64,000 nucleotides of DNA from Candidatus Eisenbacteria bacterium (GTDB lineage: Bacteria > Eisenbacteria > RBG-16-71-46 > SZUA-252), in NCBI GenBank assembly GCA_005893275.1, contig VBOW01000019.1, positions 1 to 64,000 on the forward strand, written 5' to 3'. The notes under the pieces are model-generated. The model was not told where the DNA came from and made no database searches. It saw only the letters and a program-made list of their open reading frames with translations. The position numbers were made by a program, and so were the translations under genes. Numbering within the stretch: position 1 is the first letter of the stretch; the number at the start of each line of letters is the position of its first letter. Of the stretch, positions 50,243-50,579 are shown piece by piece.

Positions 50243-50527
50243 CAAGCAAAACGGGGCGCCCGGTGCTCCGGACGCCCCGTGCCGGCCTCGCGGCCGAAAG
50301 AACTGCTCCCCGCTGGTGTCGCGCACCTAGTGCCAGTGAAACTGCGTCGTCTCGTCGAGGGGATCAGCTCAGGACCAGGCGATTCTCGCGAGCACCGCAG
50401 GGAACATGTGGCGCAGTGCGTATGTGTCCTGGTTCTAGAGCAATCCCCGTACCCGGGAGGGTCTACGCGGTGGCCAGAGGCAGGCATTCGGGCTCGGAAA
50501 TTCGCGTGGCTGTAATTAGTTAAAACA
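50243..50527 (-). ncRNA. Candidate structured RNA of unknown class
   Basis: A segment of about 285 bases with a candidate promoter at one end and a strong intrinsic terminator at the other. It can fold into a long arm at 50448-50359. From outside in, this has GGGGAT/ATCCCC, GCT/AGC, a 7-base bulge, CAGGAC/GTCCTG, and a terminal 8-bp stem with a 12-base loop. A 5-bp GCGA-tetraloop hairpin lies at 50296-50283, next to the terminator. I find no tmRNA, RNase P, SRP or common riboswitch signature. A 6S-like RNA is conceivable from the rod shape. It could also be a long, terminated leader of sppA. Confidence 0.45.
50246..50280 (-). terminator. Strong intrinsic terminator
   Basis: On the minus strand ACGGGGCG(T)CCGG and CCGG(G)CGCCCCGT form a 13-bp stem with one T-G wobble and an AGCA loop (50280-50251), followed at once by TTTGCTT. 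This is the best intrinsic terminator in the window. It lies about 370 bases beyond the gpmI stop, which suggests it ends a separate transcript. Confidence 0.75.
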
Positions 50528-50533
50528 AAGAGG

Positions 50534-50562
50534 CTTATGATATCGCCCTAATGTCGTGTCGA
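50534..50562 (-). promoter_or_regulatory. Candidate promoter of the structured RNA
   Basis: On the minus strand TCGACA (50562-50557, five of six -35 bases), a 17-base spacer and CATAAG (50539-50534, four of six -10 bases). The predicted start is near 50527, inside an AT-rich patch that is unusual for this GC-rich sequence. The -35 overlaps the foot of the preceding hairpin. Confidence 0.4.
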
Positions 50563-50579
50563 GGGGCTTGAACCCCTCG
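50560..50579 (-). terminator. Hairpin after gpmI
   Basis: CGAGGGG and CCCCTCG form a perfect 7-bp stem with loop TTCAAG. A second, mutually exclusive stem (CTCGC/GCGAG, 50590-50576) overlaps it. The T-arm-like look (GGTTCAAGCC) is not part of a tRNA. It lies about 75 bases after the gpmI stop and has no T-tract, so termination is possible but unproven. Confidence 0.4.

Follow-up and report, generated by a model that had tools for sequence, protein, structure and literature searches.

Genomic Context and Borders of the Locus

The window analyzed here comprises 64,000 nucleotides of the Candidatus Eisenbacteria contig VBOW01000019.1 (positions 1 to 64,000), and the locus examined lies on its minus strand between gpmI (nt. 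52212–50653) upstream and sppA (nt. 50154–49270) downstream, the latter given as context only and both named by sequence recognition. An initial annotation had placed a candidate structured RNA at nt. 50243–50527, with a promoter-like element, a rod-like fold, and a strong terminator. The minus strand of this 285-nt interval does fold better than shuffled sequence (z −2.89); the extent needed revision, as only ~104 bases are conserved family-wide (nt. 50407–50304; blastn against 58 related genomes). A permissive Rfam search matched 6S RNA to nearly the same bases (nt. 50406–50303). Two independent methods therefore give the same borders for what we term the mini-6S RNA, a structured RNA of 101 nt (nt. 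50405–50305) that takes up about one third of the interval originally proposed. Covariance models of the RNA match these same 101 nt in the window.

Upstream of this RNA, on the same strand, lies a match to the sigma-54 (RpoN) −24/−12 promoter (GGGTACGGGGATTGCT, nt. 50454–50439) with 10 of the 12 consensus positions and an exact GG-N10-GC. Going by the geometry of such promoters, transcription is expected to start near nt. 50428, ~12 nt past the C of the −12 element, which would give the RNA a short 5′ leader (nt. 50428–50406). On the downstream side, the GCGA-loop hairpin already noted in the initial annotation is present as a GNRA-loop hairpin (CGGCC-GCGA-GGCCG, nt. 50296–50283) between the mini-6S RNA and the terminator; similar hairpins occur in the relatives G003, G004, and G005, though not everywhere among those compared. 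The strong terminator was equally borne out, consisting of a 13-pair stem (nt. 50280–50251) with a loop of four, followed by TTTT (whole element nt. 50280–50247, minus strand). Further downstream, promoter-like boxes (TTGAAT-17-TAGCGT, nt. 50225–50197, minus strand) were read from the sequence ahead of sppA, and similar boxes are seen in the aligned loci of family f1. Just past the gpmI stop codon, we also noted a perfect dyad (CGAGGGG-TTCAAG-CCCCTCG, nt. 50560–50579) without a T run, which may mark the end of the gpmI transcript or protect it.

Conserved Fold and Covariation

The 101-nt core folds better than its shuffles (z −3.51, 0/200) and comprises a closing stem of 8–9 bp, a second helix, a 5′ asymmetric bulge, a middle helix, a short helix of the GGCU/AGUC type, and a small apical loop starting with GAUC, to which some lineages add an apical hairpin of 3–6 bp, as read from their sequences. 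In an alignment of 17 sequences (A2), 92.6% of cells are paired and 18 of the 35 pairs show two-sided changes, with 0/500 shuffles as high and with slid-partner controls (34–50% paired) far below the true pairing. The corresponding values for 39 sequences (A3) are 87.9% and 22 of 35 pairs, again with 0/500 shuffles as high and slid controls far below, and these, like those of A2, lean towards the proposed structure because both alignments were fitted to the fold derived from the first nine copies. Unconstrained RNAalifold on A3 returned 25 pairs in essentially the same helices. The mini-6S RNA is a real, conserved structured RNA.

Compensatory changes in relatives were found in the pairs of this conserved fold; the two stems originally proposed for such a test are not part of it. 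The first (50448/50359) is absent from the conserved fold, and its strand at nt. 50448 overlaps the sigma-54 −12 element, ahead of the expected start site. The second (50431/50370) is likewise absent, the CAGGAC at nt. 50431 reading GATGGAC in G003 and TCCGGAC in G001, the nearest relatives.

Since families f1 and f2 both have the locus downstream of gpmI, it might be read as nothing more than the terminator region of that gene, folded by chance. In the window, gpmI already ends at nt. 50653, and the covariation, together with the presence of the RNA in other genomic contexts across four phyla, rules out a simple gpmI terminator, which the initial annotation had also thought an unlikely reading; with the promoter pattern described below also against it, the probability left to a chance fold is negligible.

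Relationship to 6S RNA

The Rfam 6S RNA family (RF00013) matches the window at 27.9 bits, below its gathering score of 46.4, in an alignment spanning model positions 1 to 187 in which ~95 central model positions are replaced by 15 bases. The covariance-model search suggested earlier thus points to 6S RNA as the sole sensible family; no other Rfam family fits the window RNA, and none reaches its gathering threshold. The initial annotation had seen no signature of tmRNA, RNase P, SRP RNA, or the common riboswitches, and a search for tRNA and tmRNA found none in the window. Relatives of the RNA behave similarly against RF00013, with matches in G008 (34.1 bits, 3.0e-5), G115 (29.2 bits, 3.9e-4), G006, and G009, and even the best of these (G008, G115) fall under the gathering score. 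Full-length 6S RNA is also encoded in the window's own genome, on a different contig (G000:C45:16546-16727, 80.6 bits), which makes the short RNA a second gene of 6S-like kind.

The resemblance holds in both directions. The closing-stem motifs CCCUGC..UG..CGUG and CACGGC..GCGGGG are common to the mini-6S and full-length 6S RNAs of the same genomes, and a covariance model built from short copies only (R3) recovers 10 of 32 full-length 6S loci with correct strand and ends (E < 0.2 in 165 kb), including that of the window's genome (21 bits, E 0.0086). The mini-6S RNA further carries CUGAGCUGAU at RNA nt 34–43 (nt. 50372–50363, minus strand), in register with CUGAGCCGAU at nt 35–44 of E. coli ssrS (L153), where it resembles the end of the 6S pRNA template (CUGAGCCGAU44). 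In E. coli, this stretch of ssrS is the template of the pRNA, which starts at this motif. The sequence GGCUGAUC, or one near-identical to it, is present in nearly all 39 aligned relatives, and by analogy the pRNA equivalent from the mini-6S RNA would be AUCAGCUCAGGACCAGG, compared to AUCGGCUCAGGGGACUGG in E. coli.

On these sequence grounds, the mini-6S RNA and the closing-stem half of 6S RNA are homologous. Common to it and 6S RNA (SsrS, RF00013) are the sequence and structure of the closing stem, CUGAGC(C/U)GAU equally far from the 5′ end, and the reciprocal model matches, whereas the mini-6S RNA differs in its length (101 nt versus about 180–200 nt), its sub-cut-off score, the absence of the apical arm with its mimicry of the −35 region, and a reduced bubble; in free folding, the open bubble is mostly an apical loop of 15–20 nt, much smaller than in 6S RNA. 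The RNA also has a sigma-54 promoter and coexists with full-length 6S RNA. We have not filed it as 6S RNA because its score, length, and apical arm depart from those of RF00013, and judged from its sequence it is best named a 6S-derived mini-RNA. The earlier suggestion of a 6S-like RNA was accordingly sound as to kinship, with the qualification that this is no ordinary 6S RNA, being a second copy of half the length. No database family describes the mini-6S RNA.

A Sigma-54 Promoter Pattern

The promoter-like element of the initial annotation also survives in altered form, as the promoter supported upstream is of the sigma-54 type, and a scan of the 5′ end of the window RNA gave no promoter of the sigma-70 type. 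Sigma-54 control was suggested by the sequences that precede an initial 17 loci, and 39 loci fetched afterwards served as a held-out set. Sites were scored against a fixed consensus (TGGCACG-N4-TTGCW) within 160 nt upstream, with GG and GC required and at least 9 of 12 positions matching. By this measure, 16 of the first 17 loci and 36 of the 39 held-out loci carry a site (52/56), a pattern spread over ten families of four phyla, in which the loci are related and the counts not independent. Dinucleotide shuffles yielded 3.1–3.4% and the antisense strand 2/56. Two positions outside the filter are kept as well, A5 and T13 each in 52/52 sites. The exceptions comprise three f8 loci with only 8/12 matches and G009, whose site lies ~177 nt upstream. 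6S RNA is a growth-phase regulator of the sigma-70 polymerase and is made from ordinary promoters; upstream of the full-length 6S genes with complete flanks, the sigma-54 site was found in 0/28.

The genome of the window encodes rpoN (PF04552, one match) and gives 22 matches, some weak, to the activator domain PF00158; among the genomes examined, RpoN is present in 17/18 and activators in 6/6. A −24/−12 element, RpoN, and an AAA+ activator, all features of a sigma-54 unit, are found for the window. We saw no shared enhancer motif upstream of the mini-6S loci, and dyads occur near some f1 promoters. A short motif, ACAACYGAATA, is conserved just upstream of the mini-6S RNA in L095, L097, L100, L116–L119, L127, and several f8 loci; in these several other lineages it follows the sigma-54 site and precedes the closing stem, it is absent from the window, and is possibly a processing or initial-transcript signal.

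Small RNAs under RpoN control, as proposed for the mini-6S RNA, are known (CrcZ, GlmY, and Qrr); unlike the mini-6S RNA, these are unrelated to 6S RNA and not directed at polymerase. Given that a sigma-54 driven sponge such as CrcZ exists and that GAUCCCC, in the accessible loop, hardly varies among the 39 aligned relatives, the RNA could be a small RNA that acts in trans or sponges a protein and has given up its dealings with RNA polymerase. We consider this improbable, as the invariant positions coincide with the 6S motifs of the closing stem and template region and 6S RNA is the only Rfam family to score.

Distribution among Genomes

A covariance model built from nine copies (R1) found the mini-6S RNA in 17 of 47 genomes of the class, and later models (R2, R3) extended this range. 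R2 added 15 class genomes (E ≤ 9e-9), for a total of 32/47, and six genomes outside the phylum, while R3 recovered the RNA in 7/7, 8/8, and 17/20 genomes of three other phyla. Among the weak R2 matches (G011, G012, G039), only that in G012 is plausible by eye. The covariance model thereby finds the mini-6S RNA in uncultured phyla where Rfam gives nothing above threshold. A full-length 6S match accompanies the mini-6S RNA in 28 of the 32 class genomes. In two f80 genomes (G115, G256), the mini-6S locus is the sole Rfam 6S match, and full-length 6S RNA was not found in either genome.

Termination and Gene Neighborhood

The mode of termination varies across the group: in family f6, a T run directly follows the closing stem of the mini-6S RNA, and in L097 and L116, the closing stem is extended and then followed by a T run. 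The next gene also differs by lineage, being sppA in f1, a 6-phosphofructokinase in f2 and an oligopeptide-type transporter in f6 (both named by sequence recognition), and a formiminotransferase in f225. In f3, f8, f11, f80, and f146, microcompartment genes follow ~0.1–0.4 kb downstream on the same strand, and in f110 they lie within ~5.5 kb. Five families, drawn from three or more phyla, have the mini-6S RNA directly upstream of operons with BMC, EutN, PduL, and aldehyde dehydrogenase genes (L071, L069, L068, L072, L095, L097, L137–L145), an arrangement that suggests a functional or ancestral link between the two.

This proximity favors a cis-acting leader or attenuator of the downstream operon, a role the initial annotation had envisaged for sppA and which microcompartment genes would take elsewhere. 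A cis leader would be expected to keep a constant downstream gene; here, the downstream genes vary, and many loci, the window's included, have a terminator or T run after the RNA. In f80 and some other lineages, sigma-70-type boxes stand ahead of the following gene, and sppA has promoter-like sites of its own, which is why we disfavor an sppA leader. Moreover, none of the nine f1 genomes, the window's included, contains BMC-domain genes, and eight of the nine keep the RNA. We therefore regard a cis-acting leader as highly improbable, and the microcompartment link as a hint and not a requirement; dependence of the RNA on a microcompartment operon is ruled out by these same f1 genomes.

Proposed Mechanism and Comparison with Known RNAs

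We favor, with moderate confidence, a stand-alone small RNA gene whose product is a sigma-54-controlled mini-6S RNA that occupies RNA polymerase. Sigma-54 RNA polymerase, activated by an enhancer-binding protein, would transcribe the short leader, the 101-nt mini-6S RNA, and the terminator. The RNA retains the downstream-duplex mimic and the pRNA start motif while having lost the −35-mimicking apical arm, and would most likely enter the active-site channel of RNA polymerase and block it temporarily. Release would come when the polymerase copies the mini-6S RNA into a pRNA, which would begin AUCAGCUCAGG. A sigma-54 signal would in this way supplement full-length 6S RNA with another brake on transcription, one of lesser strength or different selectivity, which suggests that RNA polymerase is subject to an RNA brake made by a stress-type sigma factor for itself.

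Because its open bubble is much smaller than that of 6S RNA, the polymerase might bind the mini-6S RNA poorly or differently. The proposed occupation of the polymerase and release by pRNA synthesis are nonetheless supported by work on a truncated B. subtilis 6S-1 RNA, in which a 78-nt man-made version without the −35 arm was bound ~10-fold more weakly by sigma-A polymerase and the pRNA cycle still ran (PMC8876501). The artificial 6S78 and 6S82cp RNAs of that study resemble the mini-6S RNA in having a bubble with short flanking helices, no −35 arm, and a similar size, and differ from it in being man-made, the mini-6S RNA being natural and conserved, with its own promoter type and terminator. 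If the mini-6S RNA is indeed their natural counterpart, the parts required of a 6S RNA would become directly testable.

A different partner may also be envisaged, in which the 6S-derived RNA would bind core polymerase, like Ms1, or the sigma-54 holoenzyme, and not the housekeeping holoenzyme. Loss of the −35 arm removes the contact with sigma-70 region 4, Ms1 shows that a 6S-like RNA can bind core only (PMC9130861), and a full-length 6S RNA is usually at hand in the same genomes. Against this, the RNA retains the pRNA-template motif in its register, which fits use of the active site with a promoter-like complex, and we consider such a change of partner unlikely, if less so than the loss of polymerase binding. 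Ms1 itself, a 6S-like RNA that binds polymerase (PMC9130861), differs from the mini-6S RNA in being longer, core-binding, and found in Actinobacteria only, and has no Rfam sequence match to the window RNA. The 6S-Flavo RNA (RF01685) is similarly a divergent 6S-type family outside the description of RF00013 (PMC2864571); unlike the mini-6S RNA, it is restricted to Bacteroidetes, and it gave no match to the window RNA up to E 10.

Returning to the occupation of polymerase by a sigma-54-controlled mini-6S RNA, such a decoy, if confirmed, would link two sigma classes. The B. subtilis 6S-2 RNA and the pair in the Bacillus cereus group are, to our knowledge and unlike the mini-6S RNA, near full length and not driven by sigma-54. 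They do share with it the standing of a paralogue beside the main 6S RNA (PMC8876501, PMC7726162). In the part of the open-licence full-text literature consulted, whose silence is weak evidence of absence, no 6S RNA driven by sigma-54 or truncated in nature is described as far as we found, the closest precedent being a weak ChIP peak of NtrC at E. coli ssrS, unconfirmed by gel shift (PMC4066584). We judge the chances to be evenly balanced that the locus represents an undescribed RNA class in at least four phyla, namely a minimal 6S RNA that occurs naturally, has no −35 arm, and is made only on sigma-54 activation, with direct leverage over housekeeping transcription and often coupled to microcompartment operons.

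Additional Short 6S-Like RNAs

Two further arrangements were noted among the genomes. G318 carries two mini-6S copies of the sigma-54 type (C135:14744-14840 and C166:153-250) in addition to a full-length 6S RNA. In L120–L125 (G390–G395), a second short 6S-like RNA of ~112 nt is found at locus position ~300–413; its promoter is of the sigma-70 type (e.g., TTGACA-17-TACAAA) and not sigma-54, and two of its copies match Rfam 6S RNA weakly, at 32.4 and 24.3 bits.
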